The position numbers and the translations under genes are program-made. From the NCBI GenBank assembly GCA_024686085.1, contig JAIBDT010000002.1, positions 1-64,000 on the forward strand: DNA of 64,000 nt, in the 5' to 3' direction. Below are positions 24,599 through 64,000 of this stretch, in pieces. Numbering within the stretch: position 1 is the first letter of the stretch; every line of letters starts with the position of its first letter. The notes below the pieces were generated by a model. It saw only the letters and a program-made list of their open reading frames with translations, did no database searches and was not told where the DNA came from. This stretch comes from Loktanella sp. GTDB lineage: Bacteria; Pseudomonadota; Alphaproteobacteria; Rhodobacterales; Rhodobacteraceae.

Positions 24599-26056
24599 TT
24601 ATTTCTCTGGGGTGACGTCGACGACTTCCGCCTCGACAACATCGTCGTTTTCGGCGTCCGCATCACCGGACTGGTCAGCAATCCGACCAACGATCAAAGG
24701 CAACATTTCAGTGCCCGAAGGCATAGCCACCTCACCTGCTGGTGGGGTTTTCCAAGTCAGCGTATCAAAAGACCCACAATTGTTACACGTTGGCGACCAT
24801 CCCGCATGGATTGTCTGGCACTTGTCACAAATCCACTGCGGGCCACGCGGCGCTGTCAAAGCACGAGTGAGCCAGCCGCGCACAACAACATCGTCAGCAC
24901 CTTCACCACGTTCAATCGCTGCCATCAAGGTCAGACTACGCGAGGTTGGATCAACGTCGTTCAAATCGCCCAAGCTGCGTTTTGCAGCGGGGAAATCCTC
25001 GGCGGCAATGTTTAGCTCTGCCAGCAACATCTTTGCTTCAGAATGGTCCGGTGTTTGCTTGATCAACGTCTTGAAACGCTTCAACCGGGCCTGCGGTGTT
25101 TCGTCAGGAACGATTTCGGCAAAGGCCGCCGCAAGATCAGGGTGGGGCGTTGTTGACCAAGCCTTTGTCAGAACCCGTGATGCATAACGCGCATTGCCAG
25201 CATCAATATAGCCGCGGGCAGCCATAACAGCAGCAGGGATCAAATCAGGGGACAAACGGTTTGCCTCAATCGCTGCCTCGCGGGCCTCGATCGACTTGCC
25301 TTCATCCAACACATCCTTTGCCTCGGATAGGGCAAGAACCGCATCGCGACGCTTATGCACATCACGCGGCAAAGCGCCGGATTTCAACTTGGCACCCAGC
25401 GTCGCGCGGGCACCCTTCCAATCAGACTTATCCGCCTGAAGGCGCAGCAGCACGTCCTGCGTATCCTCGTGCTTTGGCTTCAAGGCAAATGCCTTTTCCG
25501 CAAGTTTCAGCGCAGTATCGGTATCACCCTCAGCCAGCTTTTGTTTCATGATGCCGCGCACGCCAACAAAACGGGTTTTATCGTCTTCAAGCAGCTTTTT
25601 ATACGTCGCTTCGGCAGTGCGCGCATCGCCTGTCATCTCGGCAGCTTGCGCCGTCAAAAGGTTGGTCAACTGCGGTTGCTTCAGCAACTTGTCAGCACGC
25701 TGGGCTTTGCTCATCGCAAGGTGGCCCTCGCCTGACGCCAAAGCCATCATTCCTTCGGCCAATGCTTCGTAACCCTTCTTTTCGCGGTTACGGTCAAAGT
25801 AGCGCGAAATCGCGGTTTCATCGCCATTCAAGAACTTGAATGCGGCGATCAAGAATTTTAGCAACTTCAGGCCAAGCCAAACCAGCACGACCAAGGCAAC
25901 CAGCGCAAAGGCCAGTTGTAATGGGGAAAGCGTCAATTCGACACCAGCAATGGCAATCGTTGCCCCACCGGATACTTCCATCAACTGGGTGGCCCCAAAG
26001 GTCAGGGCGGTGACCGCTGCAACAAACAACAAGATTTTGATCAAGGAAAATAACAT
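24599..26056 (-). CDS. hemY: HemY-like TPR membrane protein with C-terminal zinc ribbon
   Basis: Homologue of the TPR-containing HemY of haem operons (not protoporphyrinogen oxidase). Two N-terminal transmembrane helices (LIKILLFVAAVTALTFGATQ and LAFALVALVVLVWLGLKLL) precede the HemY domain (FLNGDETAISRYFDRNREKKGYEALAEGM) and TPR-type helices (about 120-380). Near residues 405-430 a Cys4 ribbon appears (ICDKCQ...PTCNNCG), then an acidic tail. About 485 residues. The start at 26056 follows GAAGG; a TTG at 26071 overlapping the upstream stop is possible. It follows the mitofilin-like gene directly and hemD before that, as in other alphaproteobacteria. Molecular role is not established; a scaffold for haem-pathway enzymes is the usual idea. 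Confidence 0.85.
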   Translation of the reverse strand: MLFSLIKILLFVAAVTALTFGATQLMEVSGGATIAIAGVELTLSPLQLAFALVALVVLVWLGLKLLKFLIAAFKFLNGDETAISRYFDRNREKKGYEALAEGMMALASGEGHLAMSKAQRADKLLKQPQLTNLLTAQAAEMTGDARTAEATYKKLLEDDKTRFVGVRGIMKQKLAEGDTDTALKLAEKAFALKPKHEDTQDVLLRLQADKSDWKGARATLGAKLKSGALPRDVHKRRDAVLALSEAKDVLDEGKSIEAREAAIEANRLSPDLIPAAVMAARGYIDAGNARYASRVLTKAWSTTPHPDLAAAFAEIVPDETPQARLKRFKTLIKQTPDHSEAKMLLAELNIAAEDFPAAKRSLGDLNDVDPTSRSLTLMAAIERGEGADDVVVRGWLTRALTAPRGPQWICDKCQTIHAGWSPTCNNCGSFDTLTWKTPPAGEVAMPSGTEMLPLIVGRIADQSGDADAENDDVVEAEVVDVTPEK

Positions 26057-26067
26057 CAGCGGCGCCT

Positions 26068-27240
26068 TCAATTATCGTTAAGTGATGTAGCAAGGGTTGC
26101 GGCAGCAGCCAGCGCATCTGCGCGGGCCTCTGCCAATCCCTGCCACTCGGTAAGTTCGGCGCGTGCCACTTCAGGTAGCGCACCGACTTCGGCAAGCGTA
26201 TCGGTCAATCGGCCCTCTTTCAAAGCGGCCTCGGCACGAGACAGAACAGCATCAGCGCTATCTCCGTCTTTGGGGGCAACCGACCGCACATCCAATTGGT
26301 TGCGCAGAAATGCAGTAAAACCACCCTCTGCTTCGCCAGATGCGCCTTCTCGGCGGGCAGTCGCCAAAGCAGCGCGCGCATAGTCGGGGAATGACGCCTG
26401 CAAAGACGCCAATGTCGCAACGCCGTCACGCACATCAGCCAATTCGGCAGGCACGTCCGACTGCAAGGCATCCGCCAAATCATCGAGTGCAGCACCTAAA
26501 GGTGCACCTGTTTCTAGCCCACCCTCAATCCGGGACACAGCCGCACGAGCAGCCGCAGCGCGGGCAGCAGCCTCTGCGTTCTGTTCAATCAACGCAGCTG
26601 CATCGCGGGCGGCACCTAGCTCGGCCACAGCTGTGCCGCGCAGATTTTCCATTTCTGCACGCAACGCATCCAATTCCTCGGCATAAGCTGCCGCAGACAA
26701 CGACCCTTCGTTGCCTGCACGACTACTTAAAGCATCAAATCGACCCTCCAAATCGGTGATTCGACCATCCAAGGCCGCAGCCAATTCAGTGGTCTGAGAC
26801 TGTGCCGCCTCAACGGCCGACAAGTCTACGACTGGCAGCTCGTCAATACGATTACGTAGTCCAGACACCTCTGTTGATATTGCAGAAACACGGGACGGCA
26901 ACGTCATGTCCGCCTTTGGCAATACAATGTAAGCGGCGCCAAAACCAATCGCACCAGCGACAAGACCGCCGAAAATGGCAGGCATTACCGATGTCTTTTG
27001 AGGCTCTAACGCTGGTGGTTTCGAGGTTTCTGGCTGCGGCTTTACAACTGGCTCTTCTGCTTTCGCAGGCGGTGCAACCTTTTCTGCAACTGCGGGTTTA
27101 GGATCAGGTTTAACCTCAGGCTTCGGCGCGGTCGGTTCGACCTTCGCTGCCTCAACCATGGGTGTTACATCCTCGCTCTTAGGCGTCTTCGCCTGAGACT
27201 TTGCAGGAGCCTTACGACCCTTTGCCGGTTGTTTTACCAC
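26068..27240 (-). CDS. Mitofilin/Mic60-like inner-membrane protein (COG4223)
   Basis: About 390 residues. A Lys/Pro/Ala/Glu-rich cytosolic leader of about 85 residues is followed by one transmembrane helix (AIFGGLVAGAIGFGAAYIVL) and a long Ala/Glu/Arg-rich coiled coil (about 115-260). The C-terminal region (FPDYARAALATARREGASGEAEGGFTAF and after) matches the mitofilin signature seen in alphaproteobacterial relatives of mitochondrial Mic60, which bends inner membranes. GAAAGGG lies 7 bases before a GTG at 27240, which I take as the start. Gene order hemD, this gene, hemY is the typical alphaproteobacterial arrangement. Confidence 0.82.
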   Translation of the reverse strand: MVKQPAKGRKAPAKSQAKTPKSEDVTPMVEAAKVEPTAPKPEVKPDPKPAVAEKVAPPAKAEEPVVKPQPETSKPPALEPQKTSVMPAIFGGLVAGAIGFGAAYIVLPKADMTLPSRVSAISTEVSGLRNRIDELPVVDLSAVEAAQSQTTELAAALDGRITDLEGRFDALSSRAGNEGSLSAAAYAEELDALRAEMENLRGTAVAELGAARDAAALIEQNAEAAARAAAARAAVSRIEGGLETGAPLGAALDDLADALQSDVPAELADVRDGVATLASLQASFPDYARAALATARREGASGEAEGGFTAFLRNQLDVRSVAPKDGDSADAVLSRAEAALKEGRLTDTLAEVGALPEVARAELTEWQGLAEARADALAAAATLATSLNDN

Positions 27241-27325
27241 GTTCAAACCCTTTCTTCACATCGCCATTTCTCGCATCAGGCGCACATGCAGCCTATATCG
27301 GCACTGCCAGACCCTCAAGCGACGT

Positions 27326-28009
27326 TCACGCGGGCGACACTTTGTTGCAGGCATTCACAACAGCAACCAGCATTTCAGCACCATTGGGGGCATCGACAAC
27401 CATGACGTGATGTGGTGCCAAAGCATCCGCAGTCGCCTGACTAATTGCCATCAATTCAATATGTGACCCAAGTTTAATTTGGTCCACCAATAGTTTGCCC
27501 GTACGCGGAGAGAATAGGGGAATGATCACATGGTTTGCCCCCTCAATCGCCGCCCTCGCTTCTTTTGTTAGTGCAATTGCACGCTGATCGTAGGCAATAA
27601 CATCGTCACAATGGATGCCTGCGGCAGACAATCGCGCCGCAATATCACCGCGAGCCGCCCGTCCGCGGATATGAGCCAACGCGATAGAAGGACGTTGGTT
27701 TAAAACCATCGCAATTAAATCTTCTGCATTTCCATTTGCAGATTGGGCATCAAACCCGGCATCCCGCGCCACTTGCGCCGTACGATCCCCGACACACCAT
27801 GCGGGTCCAGCGCTCAAACCCGATCGCGATGCCTGCGCAACGCCGTTTGACGACGTAAATAGATAACCCTCTGCCGCACATACCGCATTCAAAGGGACGA
27901 TTTCTTGCAAAGGGGACAAGATCGTCGGCACGTCGATATGCGTCGCAACCTCGCGGGCAAAGCGGGCACCATCGGGCACAGGGCGTGTGATAATCAATGT
28001 GGGCTTCAT
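27326..28009 (-). CDS. hemD: Uroporphyrinogen-III synthase
   Basis: Closes and inverts ring D of hydroxymethylbilane to make uroporphyrinogen III, the branch-point of haem, sirohaem and cobalamin synthesis. 227 residues in two similar lobes: [18 protein letters not shown] at the start, FTSSNGVAQ and YDQRAIAL between. HemD proteins are poorly conserved; the start motif (TRP), the FTS.NGV motif and the context with HemY support the call. Start at 28009 gives the family N-terminus; a longer frame to 28213 would run across tsaD. Divergent from tsaD with 68 bases between starts; leads the haem-linked operon. Confidence 0.85.
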
Positions 28010-28077
28010 CGCAGGACCATTGTTTGCGTAAGGCCCAAGTGTTACCTGCATACAGACAAACCGCAACCGGACTTCGC

Positions 28078-29172
28078 ATGACACAATCCCTGACCATCCT
28101 TGGTATCGAAAGCAGCTGCGATGACACCGCCGCCGCCGTCGTGCAACTTTCGAACGGGGCACCCTCAGTCCTGTCATCCGTGGTTTTTGGGCAGACCGAT
28201 CTGCACGCGGCATTCGGCGGGGTCGTGCCGGAAATCGCAGCGCGGGCGCATGTTGAAAAACTGGATATCAGCGTAAAAGAGGCTCTATCAAAGGCCAAAA
28301 TGCAATTCTCAGACCTCGACGCGGTTGCGGTGACCGCGGGACCTGGCTTGATCGGCGGCGTTGTCTCTGGCGTTATGCTTGCAAAAGGCATCTGCGCGGC
28401 GACAGGTCTACCTCTTGTCGGGGTGAACCACCTTGCGGGTCACGCCTTAACGCCACGGCTGACCGATCAAACACCTTTCCCCTACCTGATGCTCTTGGTC
28501 TCAGGTGGGCACTGTCAATTCCTGCTGGTCAAAGATCACGACGACTATACGCGCATTGGCGGAACGATAGACGATGCACCCGGTGAAGCGTTCGACAAAA
28601 CCGCGCGTATCCTAGGCCTGCCGCAACCCGGTGGCCCGTCTGTGCAAAACGCTGCAGAAAGAGGCGACGCCAAACGGTTCAAGCTGCCGCGCCCGCTGCT
28701 TAATCAAGCAGGTTGCGACATGTCTTTTTCAGGTTTGAAAACCGCAATGATCCGCGCGCGCGACGCTGTCATCGCCGAAAAGGGCGGGCTGACCATCCAA
28801 GACCAGGCCGATCTTAGCGCAGGCTTTCAAACCGCCGTGGCCGATATCATTACTGAAAAGTCGCGCCGTGCGCTGGGTGAGTATTTTACACTAAATCCCA
28901 AAACCCGCAGCTTTGCGGTCGCTGGCGGTGTTGCCGCGAACACGCAAATCAGATCGCAACTTTTGGCGCTTTGTGCCACGTTAGACACTGTTTTTGTCGC
29001 ACCTCCGCTTGCGCTTTGCACAGATAACGCCGCCATGATTGCTTATGCAGGGTTAGAACGTTTTCAGGCGGGTCTGCAGGACGATATGACACTGTCAGCA
29101 AGGCCGCGCTGGCCCTTGGACCAAACCGCCGCCCCTATGCTAGGGTCAGGAAAAAAGGGAGCAAAAGCATGA
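28078..29172 (+). CDS. tsaD: tRNA N6-threonylcarbamoyladenosine transferase TsaD
   Basis: Transfers the threonylcarbamoyl group to A37 of ANN-decoding tRNAs, in complex with TsaB and TsaE. 364 residues of the Kae1/ASKHA fold. [15 protein letters not shown] is the N-terminal hallmark; metal ligands His118 and His122 lie in [25 protein letters not shown] and [15 protein letters not shown] are conserved. Start at 28078; an earlier frame start would enter hemD. It overlaps gpsA by 4 bases (ATGA), so the two are translationally coupled. Its partner gene tsaE is at 39.5 kb in this window. Confidence 0.96.
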
Positions 29173-30131
29173 AAATCGCAGTTGCAGGCGGCGGTGCCTT
29201 CGGCACAGCATTGGCTGTCGCGCTTGTTCTGGACGGAAAGGCGGTCACCCTTTGGGCGCGTGACGCGGCTGCAGTGAAGCAGATGCAAGACGACCGAACA
29301 AACTCCCGCCTTGCGGGGGTCACCTTACCAAAAGGGTTACAGCCAACGAATGATTTGGCGATACTGTTCGAGGCCGAGATTGTCTTGCTTGCGACACCAG
29401 CACAAACGTTGCGTGATTTCCTGCTCACTCACAAAGACGCTCTGGCGGGTAAAACCCTTGTTGCTTGCTGTAAGGGGATCGACCTGCAAACCATGACTGG
29501 ACCGGTCAGCACTATTCGCGATTGCGTGCCCAGCGCGACAGCGGCGATGTTAACGGGTCCCAGTTTTGCGGCTGACATCGCAAAAGGCCTGCCAACAGCA
29601 CTGACTCTCGCCTGTGCCGATGAGGATAAAATCGAAGCACTTCAAACAACGCTTTCAACCCAAACACTGCGACTTTACCGCACAACAGACACCGTTGGGG
29701 CGGAACTTGGTGGTGCATTAAAGAACGTCATGGCCATCGCATGTGGCGTCTGTATGGGTGCGGGACTTGGTGAAAGCGCACGCGCTGCGTTAATCACGCG
29801 CGGGTTTATCGAAATGCAAAGGCTCGCGGCGAAACTGGGCGCAGAGCCGGAAACTTTGAGCGGGCTTTCAGGGTTCGGCGACCTTGTTCTGACCTGCACC
29901 TCCGACCAATCCCGCAACTACCGATACGGTCTCGCCTTGGGGCAAGGCACCGCATTTGACACGCATAGCACTGTCGAAGGGGCCGCAACGGCCCGCGCAG
30001 TACGGCAACTTAGCCAAACACTGGACATTGAAATGCCAATCTGCACAGTCGTCGCAGATCTAACCGAAAACAAAACGACCGTCAGAGAGGCCCTTGGGGC
30101 GCTACTTTCACGGCCACTAAAGGAAGAATAA
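29169..30131 (+). CDS. gpsA: Glycerol-3-phosphate dehydrogenase [NAD(P)+]
   Basis: Reduces dihydroxyacetone phosphate to sn-glycerol 3-phosphate for phospholipid synthesis. Rossmann motif [13 protein letters not shown] at residues 8-20; catalytic lysine in [22 protein letters not shown]-terminal substrate domain includes [21 protein letters not shown]. 320 residues, normal. ATGA overlap with tsaD, and the next gene starts 1 base after its stop, so tsaD-gpsA-yciI-EVE form an operon. Confidence 0.96.
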
Positions 30132-30132
30132 C

Positions 30133-30405
30133 ATGCGCGTAGCTCTTATCTGTCATGATAAAGCCGATCACCTCGACGTCCGCAAAGCCAACCGCGACGC
30201 GCATCTGGCCTATATCAAAGAGACAGGCGTCGTCGAAATGGCGGGCCCATTTCTAGATGATAACGGGACGATGTGCGGCAGCTTGATTATTCTCGACGTT
30301 GCTGACGTAGCGGCAGCCGAGCATTGGGCGCACAACGATCCCTATGCCAAGGCCGGACTGTTTGAAAGTCACAGCACCCAAGCGTGGAACAAGGTCATCG
30401 GCTGA
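30133..30405 (+). CDS. YciI-family protein
   Basis: Small dimeric alpha-beta barrel-type protein of 90 residues (DUF1428-like YCII fold). MRVALICHDKADHLDVRKANRDAHLAY at the start and AEHWAHNDPYAKAGLFESH near the end carry the usual His/Asp pocket residues. Function of the family is not settled. It lies 1 base after gpsA and shares its last base with the next start codon. Confidence 0.85.
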   Translation: MRVALICHDKADHLDVRKANRDAHLAYIKETGVVEMAGPFLDDNGTMCGSLIILDVADVAAAEHWAHNDPYAKAGLFESHSTQAWNKVIG

Positions 30406-30824
30406 TGGCAAAGTGGCTGTTAAAATCTGAACCCGACGTTTGGGGCTGGGACGCTCAGGTCGCCAAAGGGGACGCAGGCGAAGAATGGAACGGCGTGCGT
30501 AATTACCAAGCCCGCAACAACATGCGGACAATGGCGGTTGGCGATCTGGGGTTCTTTTACCACTCGCGATCGGGCCTAGAGATCGTGGGGATCGTCGAGG
30601 TCTGCGCAACGTCGCATCCAGACAGCACAACCGACGACGAGCGTTGGGATTGCGTTGATATTAAAGCCGTGCGGCCCTTTGTGCAGCCTGTGACCTTGGC
30701 ACAAATCAAAACCGACCCCCGCCTTGAAAATATGGCCCTTGTCAAAAGTTCCCGCTTGTCCGTTCAGCCTGTCACAGAGGCGGAATGGGACATCGTTTGC
30801 GCCTTAGGGAAAACAAAGCCCTAG
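30405..30824 (+). CDS. EVE-domain protein
   Basis: PUA-like EVE domain of 139 residues (MAKWLLKSEPDVWGWD, then WNGVRNYQARNNMRTM and GDLGFFYHS). The YTH-related fold binds modified nucleotides; EVE proteins are thought to bind modified bases in RNA or DNA. In alphaproteobacteria it commonly sits with yciI and gpsA, as here. The start at 30405 overlaps the yciI stop by one base (TGATG). Confidence 0.88.
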   Translation: MAKWLLKSEPDVWGWDAQVAKGDAGEEWNGVRNYQARNNMRTMAVGDLGFFYHSRSGLEIVGIVEVCATSHPDSTTDDERWDCVDIKAVRPFVQPVTLAQIKTDPRLENMALVKSSRLSVQPVTEAEWDIVCALGKTKP

Positions 30825-30886
30825 CGACATTCCGCCGCAGGCGTCATAGTTTCTCCATATAGGCAAGCTTTTACAGGAGGGACGTT

Positions 30887-31279
30887 ATGGGAATTCTATC
30901 AGTTCTCGTCGCAGCAATCGCAGGATTTGCCTTTGGGGCGATTTGGTACATGACATTATCAAAGCCTTGGATCGCCGCAACGGGCATAAAGGTCGACGAA
31001 AAGGGCCAGCCTGAAGGTGGGTCACCTCTGCCCTACGTTCTGTCATTCATCGCGATGATCCTCGTGGCGGGGATGATGCGGCACACATTCGCGCTGTCTG
31101 GGATTGACACATTTGGCAAAGGGTTGATTTCAGGGCTGGGGATCGGACTTTTCTTCATCAGCCCTTGGATCATGATCAACAACGCTTACGGAATGCGGCC
31201 ATTCAAGCTGACATTGATCGACGGCGGATACGCAACATTCGGCTGTGCGATTATCGGCGCGGTTCTGATGCTATTCTAA
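30887..31279 (+). CDS. DUF1761 membrane protein
   Basis: Hydrophobic protein of 130 residues with about four helices: ILSVLVAAIAGFAFGAIWYM, LPYVLSFIAMILVAGMM, GLISGLGIGLFFISPWIMI and a C-terminal TFGCAIIGAVLMLF. GGGAxW-type and NxxYG patterns fit DUF1761. AGGAGGG stands upstream of the ATG. Function unknown. It is separate from the EVE gene (62 bases) and convergent with DUF2853. Confidence 0.8.
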   Translation: MGILSVLVAAIAGFAFGAIWYMTLSKPWIAATGIKVDEKGQPEGGSPLPYVLSFIAMILVAGMMRHTFALSGIDTFGKGLISGLGIGLFFISPWIMINNAYGMRPFKLTLIDGGYATFGCAIIGAVLMLF

Positions 31280-31284
31280 ACGCA

Positions 31285-31315
31285 AAACGCTCGCCCTTAT
31301 CAAAGGCGAACGTTT
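31285..31315. terminator. Bidirectional terminator between DUF1761 and DUF2853 genes
   Basis: Eleven-base arms AAACGCTCGCC (31285-31295) and GGCGAACGTTT (31305-31315) with one mismatch and a nine-base loop. A-rich before and T-rich after on the plus strand, which suits both convergent genes. Confidence 0.7.
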
Positions 31316-31336
31316 CGTAATCAACATAGCAAGGAC

Positions 31337-31678
31337 TTAGCCGTAAACGGATTCTTTGCCGAAGTGCTTTGTCAGCATGTAATAAACAACAGCGCGGTAT
31401 TTGTTGCGCTCGGATTTACCATAAATTTCGATGACTTTGCCGATGGCTTCCATCAACTCAGGACCGTCAGCAAGGCCAAGCTTCTTGATAAGGAAGTTGT
31501 TCTTAACTGTTTCAAGCTCGGACGCTTGGCCACCAGCAACAGTTTGCGCATCTTTGTTATAGATCGCAGGACCGCAACCGATTGTGACTTTCGTCAACAA
31601 ATCCATGTCAGGTGTCATGCCACATTTGTTGGTCAGATCGTCCGCATACTTTGCGATCCATTCGTCTCTCTTACCCAT
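31337..31678 (-). CDS. DUF2853 protein
   Basis: Small soluble protein of 113 residues (WIAKYADDLTNKCG at the start, YRAVVYYMLTKHF at the end) matching the DUF2853 family, common in Roseobacters. Predicted mainly helical. No catalytic residues are known for it and function is unknown. Own transcript likely: 138 bases of spacer upstream and a terminator downstream. Confidence 0.8.
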   Translation of the reverse strand: MGKRDEWIAKYADDLTNKCGMTPDMDLLTKVTIGCGPAIYNKDAQTVAGGQASELETVKNNFLIKKLGLADGPELMEAIGKVIEIYGKSERNKYRAVVYYMLTKHFGKESVYG

Positions 31679-31816
31679 AGGTAGTTCCCCATCTTATGTC
31701 TTTGGCCGTTTGGCCTTGTGATGCGCAGACCGAAGTGACCAGCGCTTGTGCGCAGCCTAGTGCGGTTAATCGCGTCAGGTAAAGAAAAAATAGGGGGGAA
31801 AATTGGCGTAATCAGA

Positions 31817-32554
31817 TCAACGACAACCGCCCCACCCCACAGATTGCAAATGAAAATGGTCTGCGTGCAGGGCATTATAGTCAGGGGATAAGGTCAATCT
31901 GAACCAATCACATGCGCCGTCCTTTGCATTACGGAGATAAGTTGACTTAGCGTCGGAGCCATCCCAATCGTCGATCAACCGTATCCTTTCGCCATTTTCA
32001 AAGCGGAACCCCGAGATATCAATCGCGCTGGCCGTCGCGTGGGTGCTCATGCGACCCGTGCCACCACCTGTCGTTCTCATCTGGCGACAATTGTAGCTGC
32101 CGATATGGTCGATCTCTGACAATCGTGTACCCATCTCAATCGCGGCGGGCTTCAAACTATGCTCGGCCCACATCGCCATGCTCAGGGCGATTGCACAGCG
32201 GGTTTCAACAGGGCGAACGCGGACGGAACCGGCAGAGGAAAGATCAACGCGCGGTCTGATATAACACTGCTCCGATTTTTCTAAATCAGGCAAAATCTCA
32301 AAATCAGCGGCATCCGCTAGCGCAGCAAGGCACAGCTCTGGGTCTGCAATCGTGCGTCGAAAACGCCATTGGGTAATCGGTGTAATCGGGTCGGACACAC
32401 GCAGCGGCGCAAGCGGGTTCCATCCAACGGGAATGGCACGATCGGGGTTAATGCCACCCCAAACAATCGCCCAGAAAATCCCCGCAAACACCAAACGCAA
32501 AAGCACGCCAGCAATGCTGACGCGCTTCTTTTTCGGTGTCTTATCGTCCGCCAC
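31817..32554 (-). CDS. Extensin-like/M15-type zinc peptidase-like protein
   Basis: About 245 residues. A basic N-terminus (DKTPKKKR) and one transmembrane helix (LLRLVFAGIFWAIVWGGI) anchor it, leaving an outside domain of the extensin-like family. HATASAIDISGF and HADHFHLQ are the H-x(6)-D ... HxH zinc-ligand pattern of D-Ala-D-Ala carboxypeptidases (M15 fold), so a peptidoglycan role is plausible. Five or more cysteines (ELCLAAL, EQCY, TRCA, NCRQ, GACDW, GGCR) may form disulphides in the periplasm. It lies 3 bases after the ahcY stop codon, so it may be co-transcribed with ahcY. Confidence 0.8.
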   Translation of the reverse strand: MADDKTPKKKRVSIAGVLLRLVFAGIFWAIVWGGINPDRAIPVGWNPLAPLRVSDPITPITQWRFRRTIADPELCLAALADAADFEILPDLEKSEQCYIRPRVDLSSAGSVRVRPVETRCAIALSMAMWAEHSLKPAAIEMGTRLSEIDHIGSYNCRQMRTTGGGTGRMSTHATASAIDISGFRFENGERIRLIDDWDGSDAKSTYLRNAKDGACDWFRLTLSPDYNALHADHFHLQSVGWGGCR

Positions 32555-32557
32555 GAT

Positions 32558-33946
32558 TTAGTAGCGGTAGTGCTCTGGCTTGAACGGACCATCGACGGTC
32601 ACGCCGATATAATCCGCCTGCTCTTTATTCAGCGTCGACAGCTTTACGCCGATACGGGCAAGGTGCAAACGGGCTACTTTCTCGTCCAGATGCTTTGGCA
32701 GAATGTAAACGCCAGGCTGGTATTCGTCGCCTTTTGTCCACAACTCGATTTGCGCCAAGACTTGGTTGGTAAATGACGCTGACATCACAAAGCTTGGATG
32801 CCCAGTCGCGTTGCCAAGGTTCAGCAAACGACCCTCGGACAGCAAGATAAGCCGCGCACCGCTTGGCATCTCGATCATGTCAACTTGATCTTTGATGTTG
32901 GTCCACTTGTGGTTCCGCAGGTTGGCGACCTGAATTTCATTGTCGAAGTGACCGATGTTACCAACGATCGCCATGTCCTTCATTTCGCGCATATGCTCGA
33001 TACGAATGACGTCTTTGTTGCCTGTTGTGGTGATGAAAATGTCAGCCGTCGCAACAGCATCTTCCAGCGTTACAACCTCAAATCCGTCCATCGCAGCCTG
33101 CAACGCACAGATCGGATCAACCTCCGTCACCTTCACGCGCGCACCCGCACCAGACAAGGACGCAGCCGAACCCTTACCAACATCGCCGTAGCCACAAACA
33201 ACGGCCACTTTACCAGCCATCATCGTATCCGTCGCGCGGCGGATACCGTCAACAAGGCTCTCTTTACAGCCGTATTTATTGTCGAACTTAGACTTGGTAA
33301 CCGAGTCATTCACGTTAATAGCAGGGAACGGCAGCTGGCCTTGCTTATGCAGATCGTAAAGGCGGTGCACACCCGTTGTTGTTTCCTCAGACACACCCAA
33401 AATCGCGGCTTTCGTCTTGGCAAACCAACCTGGTGTCTCGGCAATACGCTTTTTAATCTGAACCTTGATCGCTTCTTCTTCCTCAGACTGAGGAACCGAA
33501 AGCACATCTTCGCCAGCTTCCATGCGTGCGCCCAAAAGCACATACAATGTCGCGTCACCACCATCGTCCAAAATCAAGTTAGCACCCTCTGGGAACATGA
33601 AGGATTTGTCCAAATAATCCCAATGCTCTGTCAGGCTTTGGCCCTTAATCGCAAATACAGGCACGCCTGATTCCGCAATCGCGGCCGCCGCATGGTCTTG
33701 GGTCGAGAAAATGTTGCAAGACGCCCAGCGCACATCGGCACCTAATGCTGTCAGCGTTTCGATCAAAACCGCCGTCTGGATCGTCATGTGCAGCGACCCT
33801 ACAATCCGCGCACCCTTCAAAGGCTTGCTCGCCCCAAATTCCTCGCGCAGTGCCATCAGGCCCGGCATTTCTGTTTCAGCAATATCGAGTTCCTTGCGGC
33901 CATAGCCTGCGAGTGCGATATCTTTTACAATGTAGTCGGTTGCCAT
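32558..33946 (-). CDS. ahcY: S-adenosylhomocysteine hydrolase
   Basis: Splits S-adenosylhomocysteine to adenosine and homocysteine, clearing the product of all SAM methylations. 462 residues. Rossmann motif [29 protein letters not shown] and the C-terminal KPEHYRY, which reaches into the neighbouring NAD site, are all present. AGGA lies 8 bases before the ATG at 33946; earlier in-frame codons to 33967 are possible. An insertion typical of the longer bacterial form is present around residues 140-190. The upstream gap to the divergent HD-domain gene is only 78 bases; I saw no SAH riboswitch in it. Confidence 0.97.
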
Positions 33947-34024
33947 CTGGGCCATCCTGTCTGTCATCTATTTGATGGACCATCTAGCACTGGCACGGCA
34001 CTGCGACAAGGCAATGGGATAAAC

Positions 34025-34615
34025 ATGAAACAACCACGCGCATGGCAACGGATGCTCTCGGGACGTAGACTTGACCTGCTGGACCCCACCCCAATGGATA
34101 TCGAGGTCGAAGATATCGCCCATGGGCTTGCCTTTGTCGCGCGCTGGAACGGGCAGACAATTGGTGATTACGCCTATTCCGTCGCCGAGCACTCGCTGTT
34201 GGTGACTGACATCTTCTCCGCTCAAAACCCAAACGCGCCTATCAAATGGCAACTCGCGGCCTTGCTGCACGACGCGCCCGAATATGTGATCGGCGATATG
34301 ATCTCACCCGTAAAAGCAGCCGTCGGGCCAAGTTACGGCGAACTTGACGACAGGCTAACCGCCGCGATCCACATCCGCTTTGGACTGCCCGCGCAAATTC
34401 CAGTGGCGGTCAAAAAGCAGATCAAAGCCGCCGATAAAATTTCCGCCTGGCTAGAGGCCGTGCAAATTGCAGGTTTCTCTGCCGTCGAGGCAGACAAGTT
34501 CTTTGGAAAAATCGATCCTAACTTGGCGAAATCTCTTCATATCCGACTACGACCACCCGTGGACGTCCGCAATGACTTCACCTTAAAACACCACGAATTG
34601 ATGGCAAAGCTATGA
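34025..34615 (+). CDS. HD-domain hydrolase (YfbR-like)
   Basis: Protein of 196 residues with metal-binding HD motifs: YSVAEHSLLV (first His) and LAALLHDAPEYVIGDMISPVK (HD pair), then AADKISAWLEA (last Asp). This matches the YfbR/5'-nucleotidase-like group that removes phosphate from deoxynucleoside monophosphates; the exact substrate is unknown. The start at 34025 is in the 78-base ahcY divergent gap; a frame open to 33788 is only antisense to ahcY. Overlaps the GNAT gene by 4 bases. Confidence 0.85.
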   Translation: MKQPRAWQRMLSGRRLDLLDPTPMDIEVEDIAHGLAFVARWNGQTIGDYAYSVAEHSLLVTDIFSAQNPNAPIKWQLAALLHDAPEYVIGDMISPVKAAVGPSYGELDDRLTAAIHIRFGLPAQIPVAVKKQIKAADKISAWLEAVQIAGFSAVEADKFFGKIDPNLAKSLHIRLRPPVDVRNDFTLKHHELMAKL

Positions 34616-35100
34616 TCACAATCAACACACGTGTCCGTCCCGCAGTCGGTCCAGACGCCACGCAAATGGTAAGACTGCTCAATCAGGTGATCGCGGATGG
34701 CGGAACCACCGCCCACGAAACCCCATACACGGTCGAACGGATGCGCGCAGATTACATCGCGCCGCCAAATCTGATCTCATGTCATGTCGCGATTACAAAC
34801 GGCAGGCTGTCGGGCTTTCAGTTGTTGAAGAACGACGACCGCGACGGTTGGGCCATCATCGCCACTTTTGTAGCACTTGATCGGGCCAAGATGGGGATCG
34901 GGCAAAAGCTGTTCTCGGCCACACGCTTTGCCGCCAAAGCTGCCGGTGTGCAAACCATCGACGCCACAATCCGCGCCGATAACATCGGTGGGCTCAAATA
35001 TTATGGCGGCCTTGGCTTCGCCGATTACGATGTGTTCAAAGATATCCCGCTAAAAGACGGCACACCCGTTGACCGTATCCGCAAGCGGTTCGATCTATAA
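34612..35100 (+). CDS. GNAT-family N-acetyltransferase
   Basis: 162 residues of the GNAT fold. The acetyl-CoA loop appears as FVALDRAKMGIGQKLFSAT and the C-terminal strand as NIGGLKYYGGLGFADYDVF. The substrate cannot be told. ATGA overlap with the HD gene, and convergent with regA with 2 bases between stops. Confidence 0.85.
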   Translation: MITINTRVRPAVGPDATQMVRLLNQVIADGGTTAHETPYTVERMRADYIAPPNLISCHVAITNGRLSGFQLLKNDDRDGWAIIATFVALDRAKMGIGQKLFSATRFAAKAAGVQTIDATIRADNIGGLKYYGGLGFADYDVFKDIPLKDGTPVDRIRKRFDL

Positions 35101-56230: not shown

Positions 56231-57057
56231 CCCAGAACGACACGACGGGTGTCATCGTCGACCTCGGGACGAACGCCAAACCAACGCTCGAATCCAGGCA
56301 CGCCTTGGTGCAGCAACATGCCCAGACCGTCGACCGTGATACAGCCAGCGGCATCAGCAAATTCCAACAGCTTGGTGCGCAGCGGACTATAGACAATATC
56401 CGTAACCAAAGTGCCTGCACGCAAACCATCCAGTGGAACGCGCAACTCGGCATTGCCCACCATACCCAGCGAGGTGGTGTTAATCACAGTTGCAGCGTCT
56501 TCCAGCATATTGCCAGCTTGCACCCAATCGACAACACGAATACGGGCACCAAACTCGGCGCGCAGGGCATCCGCCTTGGGACGGGTGCGGTTGGCGAGAT
56601 AGATCTCGGACACACCCGCATCAACCAAAGCCACGATAATGGCACGGGCGGCACCACCAGCGCCGAGAACTGCAGCAGGTCCAGCCTTGGGATTCCAGTC
56701 AGGGGCATTTTGCTTGAGGTTAGCTATGAAACCATAACCATCGGTATTATCTGCATAGATTGAACCGTCAGGCTTGAACGTCAGGGTATTCGCGGCACCG
56801 ATCAACGTCGCGCGATCACTGACTTGGTCAGCGACCTGCATGGCGGCAACTTTATGTGGCAGTGTCACGTTCACACCGACAAATCCCATCTTGGGTAATG
56901 TGTGCAGAACAGTCTCAAAGTCGTCTTCGGTGACATGCAACGGGACGTAATCGCCAAGCAAACCGTATTTACGCAACCAATGCTTATGCAGCCTTGGGGA
57001 CTTGGATTGGGCGATCGGGTTTCCCATAACGCCAGCAAGGGGGATATGCTTCATCAT
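56227..57057 (-). CDS. aroE: Shikimate dehydrogenase
   Basis: NADPH-dependent reduction of 3-dehydroshikimate. 276 residues. GVMGNPIAQSKSPRLHKHWL binds shikimate; catalytic Lys and Asp in VNVTLPHKVAA and ADNTDGYGF; Rossmann VLGAGGAARAII; NRTRPKAD adenosine-phosphate pocket. ATGA overlap with maf; two adjacent ATG codons at 57057 and 57054. Confidence 0.95.
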   Translation of the reverse strand: MMKHIPLAGVMGNPIAQSKSPRLHKHWLRKYGLLGDYVPLHVTEDDFETVLHTLPKMGFVGVNVTLPHKVAAMQVADQVSDRATLIGAANTLTFKPDGSIYADNTDGYGFIANLKQNAPDWNPKAGPAAVLGAGGAARAIIVALVDAGVSEIYLANRTRPKADALRAEFGARIRVVDWVQAGNMLEDAATVINTTSLGMVGNAELRVPLDGLRAGTLVTDIVYSPLRTKLLEFADAAGCITVDGLGMLLHQGVPGFERWFGVRPEVDDDTRRVVLG

Positions 57058-57653
57058 CCGTCGATTGTCCCGCGAAGTGTGAGATATGACAAGAGTTCTA
57101 ATAACGGGATGCCCAAGACATTGAAATAGTCGCCTTCAACGCGGGAAAACAGGCGGGCGCCCTCTTCTTCCAACTTATAAGCACCAACCGCGTGACGAAT
57201 ACTGTCCCAGTTGCGATCGACATAGGCGGCCAAATAGGCATCCGACACATCACGCATAAACAAACGGGTTAAACCAACGTGACGCCATTGGGGTTTGCCG
57301 TCAGCATAAATCACTGCAGCTGAAAGCAATTGGTGGGTCTGGCCGCGCAAGGACTTAAGTTGGGCAATCGCATCCGCGGGGGTTTTTGGTTTTGACAGCA
57401 TCTGACGGCCATGGGCCAAAACCTGATCGCAACCAATGACAATCGCATCGGGATGTTTTGACGCGACGCGCAGGGCTTTCATTTCGGCCAAAGCATCGGC
57501 AATATCACGGGGCGAGGCATTTTCGGCAATCAGTGACTGCTTGATAGTGTCCTCATCAACGCGAGGAACAACAACCTCGAATTCAATGCCGGCATTGCGC
57601 AAAAGGGTCGCGCGGATATCAGACCCAGAGGCAAGAATGAGCGGTTGTACCAT
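57054..57653 (-). CDS. maf: Maf-family nucleoside triphosphate pyrophosphatase
   Basis: House-cleaning hydrolase of non-canonical or dTTP/UTP-type nucleotides, 199 residues. N-terminal LILASGSDIRATLLRNAG is the Maf S-x-x-R-x-x-L-L loop in a variant form (SDIR instead of SPRR); VIGCDQVLAHGRQMLSKP and YKLEEEGARLFSRVEGDYFNVLGIPLLELLSYL are the other Maf motifs. I start at 57653; the frame open to 57740 runs through the origin region with no support. First gene of the operon leading away from the candidate oriC. Confidence 0.9.
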   Translation of the reverse strand: MVQPLILASGSDIRATLLRNAGIEFEVVVPRVDEDTIKQSLIAENASPRDIADALAEMKALRVASKHPDAIVIGCDQVLAHGRQMLSKPKTPADAIAQLKSLRGQTHQLLSAAVIYADGKPQWRHVGLTRLFMRDVSDAYLAAYVDRNWDSIRHAVGAYKLEEEGARLFSRVEGDYFNVLGIPLLELLSYLTLRGTIDG

Positions 57654-58034
57654 GGGGATAACCCTTTGGAAAACTCCTGTGTCATCCATTGAATGACAGC
57701 GTGGATAATTACGGTAATCAGTCGGTTGTGCGTATCTCACAAGTTATGCAAGCGGTTCAGTAGAAATGTCCACTGTGGGAAAGAATAAGTTAAGGCTGTG
57801 GAGGAATCTGTCACGGGGTGCGAGTCAATATCTTGATGCAATCAAATGTTAATATTTTTATTTATCTAAGTAATTGAAATATATGTAAAATAATATTTCT
57901 ACGGCATAAACTGGATGGTTGACTTGCGGGGGATAACCTTGCGGATAAAAAAACTATCCACAGATCGGGTCGTGCCTACTTCATCATCATCTTTCTTTAT
58001 ATATACTTAATTATATTAAGAGGACGGACAGACC
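57654..58034. other. Candidate chromosome replication origin (oriC)
   Basis: A 381-base gene-free stretch between maf (minus) and hemJ (plus), unusually AT-rich for this genome. DnaA-box-like words (consensus TTATCCACA): TTATCCACG on the minus strand (57700-57708), TTATCCCCC (minus, 57928-57936), TTATCCGCA (minus, 57940-57948), CTATCCACA (plus, 57954-57962); weaker ones near 57774 and 57797. Three boxes lie within 35 bases. AT-rich tracts suited to unwinding lie on each side (57840-57900 and 57990-58020). Two GANTC sites (57804-57808, 57822-57826) could be CcrM targets. A near-match to an IHF site is at 57840-57852. Genes diverge from it on both sides, and parS and parA lie 3-6 kb away, as in Caulobacter. 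Confidence 0.7.
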
Positions 58035-58484
58035 ATGAATGAAATCATCCTAACACTCTATCCGTGGATCAAGGCACTGCACATCATGGCAGTGATATCT
58101 TGGATGGCAGGGATGTTCTATCTGCCCAGACTTTACGTCTATCACGCAGAGCGGGCAGAATTCGGGACAGAGCTCGATGCGACATTCCAGATCATGGAAG
58201 AAAAGCTACTGCGGGTCATTATCAATCCGGCTATGATCGTGACGTGGGTTTGCGGGCTGATCATGCTCTATGCAGGAGCATTCGATTTCAGTGCTGCGTG
58301 GTCCTGGATTAAAATCATCGCGGTTATCCTTATGTCAGCGTTTCACGGATGGTTGGCCACACGGCGTAAAGATTTCGTTAAAGGGGCCAACACGCGCACT
58401 GGACGGACCTACAGGATAGCAAACGAAGTGCCGACTGTGCTGATGCTGGTAATTGTCGTCATGGTCGTTGTCAGGCCGTTCTGA
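58035..58484 (+). CDS. hemJ: Protoporphyrinogen IX oxidase HemJ-like
   Basis: Inner-membrane protein of 149 residues with four helices. WIKALHIMAVISWMAGMFYLPRLYVYH carries the conserved His and Arg/Tyr of HemJ, and RIANEVPTVLMLVIVVMVVVRPF ends it. HemJ oxidises protoporphyrinogen IX in bacteria without HemG or HemY-type oxidase (the TPR HemY at 25 kb is unrelated). AGAGGAC precedes the ATG. First gene right of the candidate origin. Confidence 0.88.
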   Translation: MNEIILTLYPWIKALHIMAVISWMAGMFYLPRLYVYHAERAEFGTELDATFQIMEEKLLRVIINPAMIVTWVCGLIMLYAGAFDFSAAWSWIKIIAVILMSAFHGWLATRRKDFVKGANTRTGRTYRIANEVPTVLMLVIVVMVVVRPF

Positions 58485-58598: not shown

Positions 58599-59870
58599 AT
58601 GACCCAAGACCGTCTGAACCTCGCCGACCTTAAAGCACAATCGCCAAAAGACCTTTTGACCCTCGCTGAAGAGCTAGAGATCGAAAACGCGTCTACCATG
58701 CGCAAAGGCGACATGATGTTCGCGATCCTGAAAGAACGGGCTGACGAAGAATGGGTGATCGGTGGCGACGGTGTGTTGGAAGTCTTGCAAGACGGGTTCG
58801 GTTTCTTGCGGTCGCCAGAGGCAAACTATCTGCCGGGACCAGATGACATCTACGTCTCACCTGACATGATCCGTGCGCATTCCATGCGGACAGGGGACAC
58901 CGTCGAAGGGGTGATGAAAGAACCAAACGACGCAGAGCGTTATTTCGCACTGACCAGCGTCGAAAAGATCAACTTTGAAGATCCTGAAAAGACGAAGCAC
59001 AAAGTTGCCTTTGATAACCTGACACCGCTCTACCCAGACGAGCGGTTCAAGATGGAGGTCGAAGACCCAACCATCAAAGACAAATCCGCACGGATTATCG
59101 ACCTCGTAGCGCCAATCGGCAAAGGACAACGGTCCTTGATCGTGGCACCGCCGCGGACTGGTAAAACGGTCCTACTGCAAAACATCGCTAACTCGCTGGA
59201 AAAAAACCATCCAGAGATTTACCTCATCGTTCTGTTGATCGACGAACGGCCAGAGGAAGTGACCGACATGCAGCGTTCGGTTAAAGGCGAAGTTGTATCC
59301 TCGACATTCGACGAGCCACCTACACGTCACGTCGCTGTCGCCGAAATGGTGATCGAAAAAGCGAAACGACTGGTTGAGCATAAGCGTGACGTTGTGATCC
59401 TGCTCGATTCGATCACGCGTCTTGGACGAGCCTACAACACCGTTGTGCCTTCGTCGGGTAAAGTTCTGACAGGTGGTGTTGATGCGAATGCATTGCAGAG
59501 GCCAAAGCGCTTCTTTGGTGCTGCGCGAAACATTGAAGAAGGCGGGTCGTTGACCATTATCGCAACCGCGTTGATCGATACAGGATCACGGATGGACGAA
59601 GTGATCTTTGAAGAATTCAAAGGGACGGGTAACTCTGAAATCGTGCTTGATCGGAAAATCGCCGACAAACGGGTTTTCCCTGCGATGGACATCCTTAAGT
59701 CTGGGACGCGCAAAGAAGAGCTGTTGGTCGACAAGGCTGATCTTGCGAAAACTTACGTGCTGCGCCGTATCCTCAACCCAATGGGGACAACAGACGCAAT
59801 CGAGTTCCTGATCGGGAAGCTGAAGCAGACAAAGTCCAACGCAGACTTCTTCGACTCAATGAACACCTAA
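58599..59870 (+). CDS. rho: Transcription termination factor Rho
   Basis: Hexameric RNA-dependent ATPase, 423 residues. RNA-binding cold-shock domain around 50-120 ([24 protein letters not shown]), Walker [19 protein letters not shown], Walker [18 protein letters not shown]-loop and R-loop [31 protein letters not shown]. Start at 58599 ([20 protein letters not shown]) fits the family; a TTG at 58587 is possible. A 114-base gap after hemJ may hold its promoter. Confidence 0.97.
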
Positions 59871-61184: not shown

Positions 61185-61200
61185 TGTTTCACGTGAAACA
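61185..61200. promoter_or_regulatory. parS centromere site 1
   Basis: The perfect 16-base palindrome TGTTTCACGTGAAACA, identical to the parS consensus bound by ParB. It straddles the mnmG start (GTG at 61193 lies inside it). About 3.2 kb from the candidate origin and 2.5 kb before parA. Confidence 0.93.
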
Positions 61201-63067: not shown

Positions 63068-63671
63068 GATCGCAGGGATAAATGTTTCACGTGAAACAAT
63101 GGACCGGTTAGAGAGTTTCGCAGCGCTCGCCAAAAAGTGGAACCCAAGCATTAATCTCGTTGCACGCAGTACGCTGGCGGACCTTTGGGATCGTCATATC
63201 GTTGATTCGGCGCAAGTCTATCGTTTTGCACCGCAAAATGCCGTTCATTGGGTAGATATCGGCAGTGGTGGGGGTTTTCCGGGCATTGTCGTTGCGGCGA
63301 TGGCGAAAGAATTAAGTCCTAATACAAAGTTTACATTGATTGAAAGCGACCAGCGTAAATCAACATTTTTACGAACCGCCGCACGTGAACTTGACCTTAA
63401 ACTAACCGTACTGGCCGATAGAATTGAACACGCTCCACCACAATCGGCGGATGTTCTTAGTGCGCGGGCCCTTAGTTCGCTCGATGCATTATTTCCGATG
63501 ATTTTAAGACATCTCGGACCAAATGCGGTGTCGATTTTGCCAAAAGGAAAAACTTTTGCCGATGAAATTACTCAGGCGAAACAGCATTGGGACTTTGATA
63601 TCGTGGCGCACACCAGTATGACAGAACCAGACGCCCGCATCCTTGTTGTGAAAGATATCACTCGTGACTGA
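63060..63671 (+). CDS. rsmG: 16S rRNA (guanine527-N7)-methyltransferase RsmG (GidB)
   Basis: SAM-dependent methyltransferase, 203 residues. [26 protein letters not shown] and [16 protein letters not shown] (SAM site, GSGGGFPG) are diagnostic; [15 protein letters not shown] follows. Loss in other bacteria gives low-level streptomycin resistance. Overlaps mnmG by 8 bases. Residues 8-13 (NVSRET) are encoded by the second parS, a known alphaproteobacterial arrangement. Confidence 0.95.
63083..63098. promoter_or_regulatory. parS centromere site 2
   Basis: Second perfect copy of TGTTTCACGTGAAACA, inside rsmG codons 8-13, about 1.9 kb from the first and 0.57 kb before the parA start. Confidence 0.93.
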
Positions 63672-64000
63672 TCCCAGCCGCATCCATGGCCCCCGAATTC
63701 TCGCAGTCGCCAACCAAAAGGGTGGTGTCGGCAAGACAACTACTACGATCAACCTCGGCGCTGCTCTGGCAGAGGTTGGGAAACGTGTCCTTTTGGTCGA
63801 CCTCGACCCACAAGGAAATGCTTCGACTGGCCTTGGTGTCGATCAAAGCGACCGCGATGTGACGACATATGATCTGATCGCTGGTGACGCGACGCCGTCT
63901 GAGGCAATTCAGACAACAGACGTCGATAATCTTTGGATCATCCCAGCGACAACCGATCTTAGTTCCGCTGATATTGAACTGATTGCAAACGAGAAACGCA
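63664..64000 (+). CDS. parA: Chromosome partition ATPase ParA, N-terminal part (cut by window edge)
   Basis: 112 residues visible. ILAVANQKGGVGKTTTTINLGAALA is the deviant Walker A (KGGVGKTT) of ParA/Soj, and VLLVDLDPQGNASTGLG is the switch/Walker A' region. GTG at 63664 overlaps the rsmG stop by 8 bases. With ParB (expected just past the window) and parS it moves new origins to the cell pole. Confidence 0.93.
   Translation, partial: MTDPSRIHGPRILAVANQKGGVGKTTTTINLGAALAEVGKRVLLVDLDPQGNASTGLGVDQSDRDVTTYDLIAGDATPSEAIQTTDVDNLWIIPATTDLSSADIELIANEKR

Follow-up and report, generated by a model that had tools for sequence, protein, structure and literature searches.

The 381-bp intergenic region between maf and hemJ of this Loktanella genome (positions 57654-58034, 39% G+C) is very probably the chromosomal replication origin, oriC. 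This reading, first put forward in an original prediction and supported here by sequence comparison, is the best one because the region holds a cluster of DnaA boxes that is conserved over 111 regions, lies near the switch in GC skew of three related chromosomes, adjoins a parABS system and is orthologous by gene order to the origin of Caulobacter crescentus. The Caulobacter origin lies between hemE and COG1806/PPSR (PMC1914354), and the flanks found among relatives suggest that the origin kept its place here, whereas its two neighbors in other alphaproteobacteria disappeared or went elsewhere.

Origins have already been predicted for 101 Rhodobacteraceae, Loktanella vestfoldensis included, from TTATCCACA-type boxes, the GC-disparity minimum, a local GC minimum and proximity to parAB (PMC6699656); these belong to the same family as the source genome, and the main text of that survey mentions neither hemE nor maf. 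What is added here is a footprint and a series of flank states. A limited literature search found no report of the loss of both flanks in Rhodobacteraceae, and we claim no priority.

The Region and Its Neighborhood

The source assembly is a 2.99-Mb draft of 109 contigs (91% complete), and the region is located on contig C108 (118,503 bp); the window is the whole stretch of 64,000 nucleotides that was analyzed. HemJ has its closest named matches among records of Loktanella and Yoonia (79% identity). The gene names dnaQ, coaE, hemC, hemW, rdgB, rph, hrcA, grpE, mutS, tsaD, gpsA, and ahcY were assigned by eye from translations. The features are as follows (a DnaA box being a word with at most one mismatch to TTATCCACA unless stated).

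57054-57653, minus strand: maf, left flank (Pfam PF02545)
57654-58034: proposed oriC, the maf–hemJ intergenic region (box cluster, conservation)
57653-57661, minus strand: DnaA box TTATCCCCA, one mismatch, overlapping the maf start
57700-57708, minus strand: DnaA box TTATCCACG, one mismatch
57767-57789: conserved near-palindromic block TGTCCACTGTGGGAAAGAATAAG, with facing box-like words
57796-57808: CTGTGGAGGAATC, conserved at 57797-57805 and holding a GANTC site at 57804-57808
57822-57826: second GANTC site (GAGTC)
57840-57852, plus strand: weak near-IHF word, one mismatch from WATCAANNNNTTR (judged by eye)
57849-57897: central AT-rich tract with the least stable 40-mers, candidate unwinding element
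57928-57936, minus strand: box-like word TTATCCCCC, two mismatches, right-hand cluster
57940-57948, minus strand: DnaA box TTATCCGCA, one mismatch, right-hand cluster
57954-57962, plus strand: DnaA box CTATCCACA, one mismatch, right-hand cluster
57978-57996, plus strand: conserved ACTTCATCATCATCTTTCT, ATC repeat and pyrimidine run, which may be trio-like
57997-58019: right-hand AT-rich tract TTATATATACTTAATTATATTAA, second candidate unwinding element
58035-58484, plus strand: hemJ (UPF0093), right flank (Pfam PF03653)
58599-59870, plus strand: rho, followed by mnmE, mnmG, and rsmG
61185-61200: parS, exact TGTTTCACGTGAAACA, at the mnmG start (first codons)
63083-63098: parS, exact 16-mer, at the rsmG start (first codons)
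63664-64000, continuing to C108:64476, plus strand: parA (Pfam, first 112 residues)
C108:64482-65378: parB, after parA (Pfam, whole protein)

Several elements that the original prediction had listed are borne out by these assignments: the divergent genes maf and hemJ (both by Pfam); the AT-rich tracts, one comprising the least stable 40-mers and one the TTATATATACTTAATTATATTAA tract; a near-IHF word, though a weak one, with one mismatch to its consensus; and the nearby partition locus, where two exact parS sites (61185 and 63083) are followed by parA and then parB. The whole parABS system is within 8 kb of the region, and the offset of each parS site from hemJ is kept within 17 nt in the relatives G173 and G127.

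DnaA Boxes and Their Conservation

Together with its maf edge, the region carries four boxes (57653, 57700, 57940, and 57954) of the 22 on the 118.5-kb contig and is the densest 400 bp of that contig, which elsewhere has at most two boxes per 400-bp window. At the density of the genome (508 boxes in 2.99 Mb, or 0.067 expected per 393 bp), four or more boxes have a probability of about 8e-7 per window and of 0.006 over all such windows. All boxes inside the region are imperfect, with at least one mismatch each, and no two exact boxes in the same orientation lie within 30 nt of each other anywhere in the source assembly. The three box-like words within 35 bases that had been predicted are present as the right-hand cluster (57928-57962), the first of them with two mismatches to the consensus; a further word with two mismatches, TTTCCCACA at 57774 on the minus strand, lies in the near-palindromic block.

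Among 100 listed of the 508 box places in the genome there is another cluster of three boxes, on contig C4 (C4:114-249). Its boxes, two exact and one with one mismatch, are all on the minus strand and precede mraZ and cell-division genes by 300-430 nt. Exact boxes occur at the corresponding position in two relatives (G149 and G148); 4 of 17 relatives have any box within 600 nt and 13 have none. These boxes may reflect control of division genes by DnaA in a small clade.

To compare the region across relatives, maf, aroE, coaE, dnaQ, hemJ, rho, mnmE, mnmG, and hemE were placed on 156 loci, some genomes giving several; the 130 loci with a gap of 200-560 nt after maf were counted, and the other 26 (longer gap, maf out of reach or incomplete) were left out. 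In the family and genus sets, which are best-scoring matches rather than random draws, 24 of the 29 Rhodobacteraceae loci with the best HemJ matches (the source's own excluded) have a leftward maf, a gap of ~0.4 kb and a rightward hemJ, three have a longer gap and two have hemE before hemJ, and maf and hemJ are adjacent in 29/29 genus loci among the matches listed. Leaving aside the box at the maf start, the 130 regions and the source's own contain a mean of 1.96 boxes, compared with 0.09 in 1649 control windows (400 bp each, from loci of at least 9 kb), none of which has more than two. Removal of duplicates left 111 distinct regions, the source's own included (four of them, L063, L114, L118, and L121, precede hemE), and with the maf edge these have a mean of 2.75 boxes versus 0.12 in dinucleotide shuffles. 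At least one box is present in 108 of these regions and at least two in 88, counts that are not independent tests because the regions are related by descent. A box is found at the offset of the 57653 box in 57/111 regions, and several Yoonia regions have no box other than one at the maf start.

An alignment of hand-chosen near relatives (29 rows, 28 of them distinct, as L010 and L058 are alike) depicts a fast-changing region with conserved islands at 57655-57672, 57767-57789, 57797-57805, 57930-57949, 57959-57963, 57978-57996, and 58003-58013. Islands of this kind lie at the boxes.

Unwinding Elements and Other Motifs

Of the 111 copies, 49 have their least stable 40 bp at 0.4-0.7 of the region's length and 61 have them at 0.8-1.0, close to the gene that follows. 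The CATCATC of the conserved element at 57978-57996 is kept in 26/29 aligned rows, and a run of six (.T.) triplets stands 3' of the right-hand cluster, 17 nt from the box. DnaA-trios have been defined as three or more repeats of (.A.) no farther than 16 nt from a DnaA box (PMC8287927), so that this spacer is just beyond the published limit. The succession of box, spacer, and a lower-strand run that fits (.A.)n may correspond to the Bacillus-type basal unwinding system (PMC8287927), from which it differs in the 17-nt spacer, in triplets that read AAG/TAG/AAA/GAA rather than GAT, and in a signal only modestly above base shuffles. Over the 111 regions, the longest trio-type run has a mean of 5.14, compared with 3.54 in single-base shuffles (a weak control), and reaches four in 93.

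GANTC sites had also been offered as a mark of the origin. Two are present (57804 and 57822), the first with a GANTC nearby in 21/29 aligned rows (one row being a duplicate); however, the motif is not enriched in the 111 regions (1.43 vs 1.62 in shuffles). Neither a strict IHF site nor a TTAA-N7-TTAA CtrA site occurs in the source region, the former being found in 17/111 regions and the latter in 9/111. The scarcity of CtrA sites fits with the finding that loss of ctrA is harmless to growth in the Rhodobacterales studied, although an influence of CtrA on replication has nonetheless been demonstrated in some of them (PMC8116508).

Changing Flanks around a Stationary Region

The region shares with Cori of C. 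crescentus an orthologous place by gene order, DnaA boxes and an AT-rich stretch, and its 381 bp compare with an intergenic region of >400 bp there (PMC1914354). It differs from Cori in lacking the CtrA site, the strict IHF site, and the TGATCCACA word, and the Caulobacter-type flanks, hemE and COG1806/PPSR, are not present around 57654-58034. The original prediction had correctly described the absence of hemE and of the regulatory-kinase gene from the flanks: in the source genome hemE is on another contig (C94), divergent to hemC, and PPSR (PF03618) was not found in the 91%-complete assembly. The origins of Wolbachia, Ehrlichia, and Anaplasma are similar in that one flank departs from Caulobacter and in that their regions are mostly ~0.4 kb; in these genera hemE is one flank and COG1253 the other (PMC1914354), whereas in the source genome PPSR is missing and hemE is elsewhere.

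The outgroup locus L104 has the order maf (leftward), PPSR (leftward), the region, hemE, hemJ, and rho (all rightward), and L110 has the same order up to hemJ, with rho unmatched; Pfam identifies PPSR in both and hemE (PF01208) in L104. Within the family, several flank states are found. Both genes are kept at the region in G004 and G101; PPSR is kept beside it with hemE elsewhere in G057, G015, and G074; hemE is kept with no PPSR match in G093 and G017; and neither gene is beside the region in G173, G127, G045, G003, G055, G058, G013, and the source genome. PPSR was found in 5 of 16 genomes. The same 16 genomes each have a single hemE match, which indicates that hemE was moved or replaced rather than merely duplicated; in a wider draw, hemE was matched in 117/120 genomes, with more than one match (mostly weaker or partial) in six. 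Directly adjacent hemE and hemJ were read by eye in 6 of the 110 genomes with both matches (G004, G017, G054, G083, G093, and G101), ~20 of the hemJ matches in these genomes being weak and possibly paralogues elsewhere. The predicted change in local order holds relative to Caulobacter but is common in Rhodobacteraceae.

The right-hand module (box, box, pyrimidine run, and AT-rich tract, identified by eye) stands before hemE where hemE is kept and otherwise before hemJ. It is clear in L063, L121, L122, and L117 and degenerate in L118 and L125, and in L121 and L122, which have hemE interposed before hemJ, no box is present in the 600 nt upstream of hemJ. As the module is found before whichever gene follows, it appears to be part of the origin rather than of hemJ or maf. 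The distant outgroup loci L104, L108, L110, and L111 have 0-1 box in the 600 nt before hemE. A further flank state is represented by the Paracoccus loci L066, L068, L080, and L106, in which no maf was matched and hemJ is preceded by 4-7 boxes within 600 nt.

GC Skew and Alternative Readings

At the scale of the chromosome, skew was determined in G055, G173, and G045, with 20 samples of 20 kb per genome, taken every 150-210 kb. Skew is positive in 27/30 samples downstream of the locus (G055 7/10, G173 10/10, and G045 10/10) and negative in 27/30 upstream (G055 10/10, G173 8/10, and G045 9/10), and it flips again near the opposite pole; the three negative downstream samples of G055 include the nearest (+105 kb). 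This sampling fixes the switch to 100-300 kb only, and the exact place of the origin therefore rests on the footprint. The chromosome-wide skew check that accompanied the original prediction is thus answered in two ways: the sign switches near the locus in three sampled relatives, but the minimum on the source contig lies 25 kb off.

Within the window alone, cumulative skew has its minimum near 57 kb, which we dropped as confirmation of the origin because the minimum of the whole contig is at 83127, 25 kb to the right of the region. Taken together with a strand-corrected third-position change point at 75-84 kb, which fits clearly better than the hemJ place (RSS 290 vs 454), this minimum is the chief counterevidence to the present reading and would place the functional origin near 78-84 kb of the contig, ~20-25 kb rightward, with maf–hemJ as a former or secondary DnaA-binding region. 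We consider this quite improbable. There is no box cluster in that stretch, the nearest boxes being single (74628 and 85542). Where matches were found, from -23 to +46 kb, the genes follow the order and orientation seen in G173 and G127, so that a local inversion of 58-83 kb in the recent past is not supported (synteny with G173 extends to about +57 kb, and G127 has ~17 kb inserted beyond +38 kb). In seven relatives the minimum within ±40 kb is always to the left of hemJ and never at +25 kb (-33, -40 [edge], -19, -18 [near edge], -0.5, -14, and -12 kb). G127 has its minimum over ±100 kb at -88 kb; third-position change points are placed at about -50 kb in G173 and about -43 kb in G127. Net skew over eight genomes, the source included, is positive on the right-hand side in 8/8 and negative on the left-hand side in 5/8. 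Additionally, the bin of genes 7.3-12.6 kb to the right is skew-negative in 7/8 genomes, which points to gene-specific composition as the cause of part of the shift. We hence read the 83127 minimum as local noise, since relatives share synteny over this stretch yet have minima scattered to the left, and we rejected the place near 83 kb, which has no box cluster, as the origin. The skew minimum, which the original prediction had named as a refuting test, is 25 kb from maf–hemJ on this contig, and the relatives indicate that such a minimum is unreliable at this scale; a local minimum at the locus supports an origin but does not define one.

Two readings that dispense with an origin at this place are less probable still. 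The location between divergent genes, and the occurrence of a box cluster upstream of mraZ in the same genome, which indicates that clusters also occur at promoters, could be accommodated if the conserved words were a DnaA-controlled divergent promoter of maf and hemJ. The persistence of the boxes when hemE or PPSR replaces hemJ or maf as neighbor, the chromosome-scale skew and the position of parABS make this very improbable. dnaA is a usual neighbor of bacterial origins (PMC10225481). An origin at dnaA–dnaN, as in many other bacteria, is nevertheless extremely improbable, and we rejected it: no box lies upstream of dnaA in the source genome (contig C96), nor in the 6 kb around dnaA in G173. 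In G045, G055, and G173, dnaA is 67-265 kb from the locus; at such spacing the skew samples of G045 and G055 do not discriminate between the two places, but both G173 samples between locus and dnaA (+62 and +215 kb) are skew-positive, against an origin at dnaA.

Two side observations concern composition and gene order on the contig. Six genes at C108:65375-73290 (hemW, rdgB, rph, hrcA, grpE, and mutS), located on both strands to the right of the region, have negative plus-strand third-position skew in 7/8 genomes. The block at 24600-35100 (tsaD, gpsA, and ahcY by eye) is to the left of the origin in the source genome but inverted and to the right of it in G173 (+76 to +83 kb), as is part of the block in G127 (+97 to +99 kb); this amounts to an inversion between the arms of the chromosome.

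Proposed Mechanism and Implications

If the maf–hemJ region is the origin, the right-hand cluster (57928-57962) is the most likely nucleation site among the conserved boxes to which DnaA would bind, and contact would then extend to the boxes on the maf side. DnaA would open an adjacent AT-rich tract, either the central one (57849-57897) or the right-hand one (57978-58019), and helicase loading in both directions would follow; segregation would then start with the origin part, through ParB bound at the parS sites 3-5 kb to its right. We tentatively propose, while leaning slightly against it, that oriC in Rhodobacteraceae has an architecture of its own: a self-contained unit of ~0.4 kb with box clusters at both ends, two AT-rich tracts, an ATC-repeat/pyrimidine target for single-strand binding by DnaA and mostly no CtrA sites, which may have kept its size while both ancestral neighbors were shed via intermediates that persist in living genera.

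For a widespread marine group whose origins have so far been assigned by skew, box counts and proximity to parAB, the region provides a footprinted candidate origin at the level of bases. The rule that alphaproteobacterial origins are flanked by hemE and COG1806 fails in most of the Rhodobacteraceae genomes sampled, and the order maf–hemJ–rho serves instead as a guide to the origin in most loci seen. The different flank states among relatives, finally, make the limits of the functional unit directly testable.
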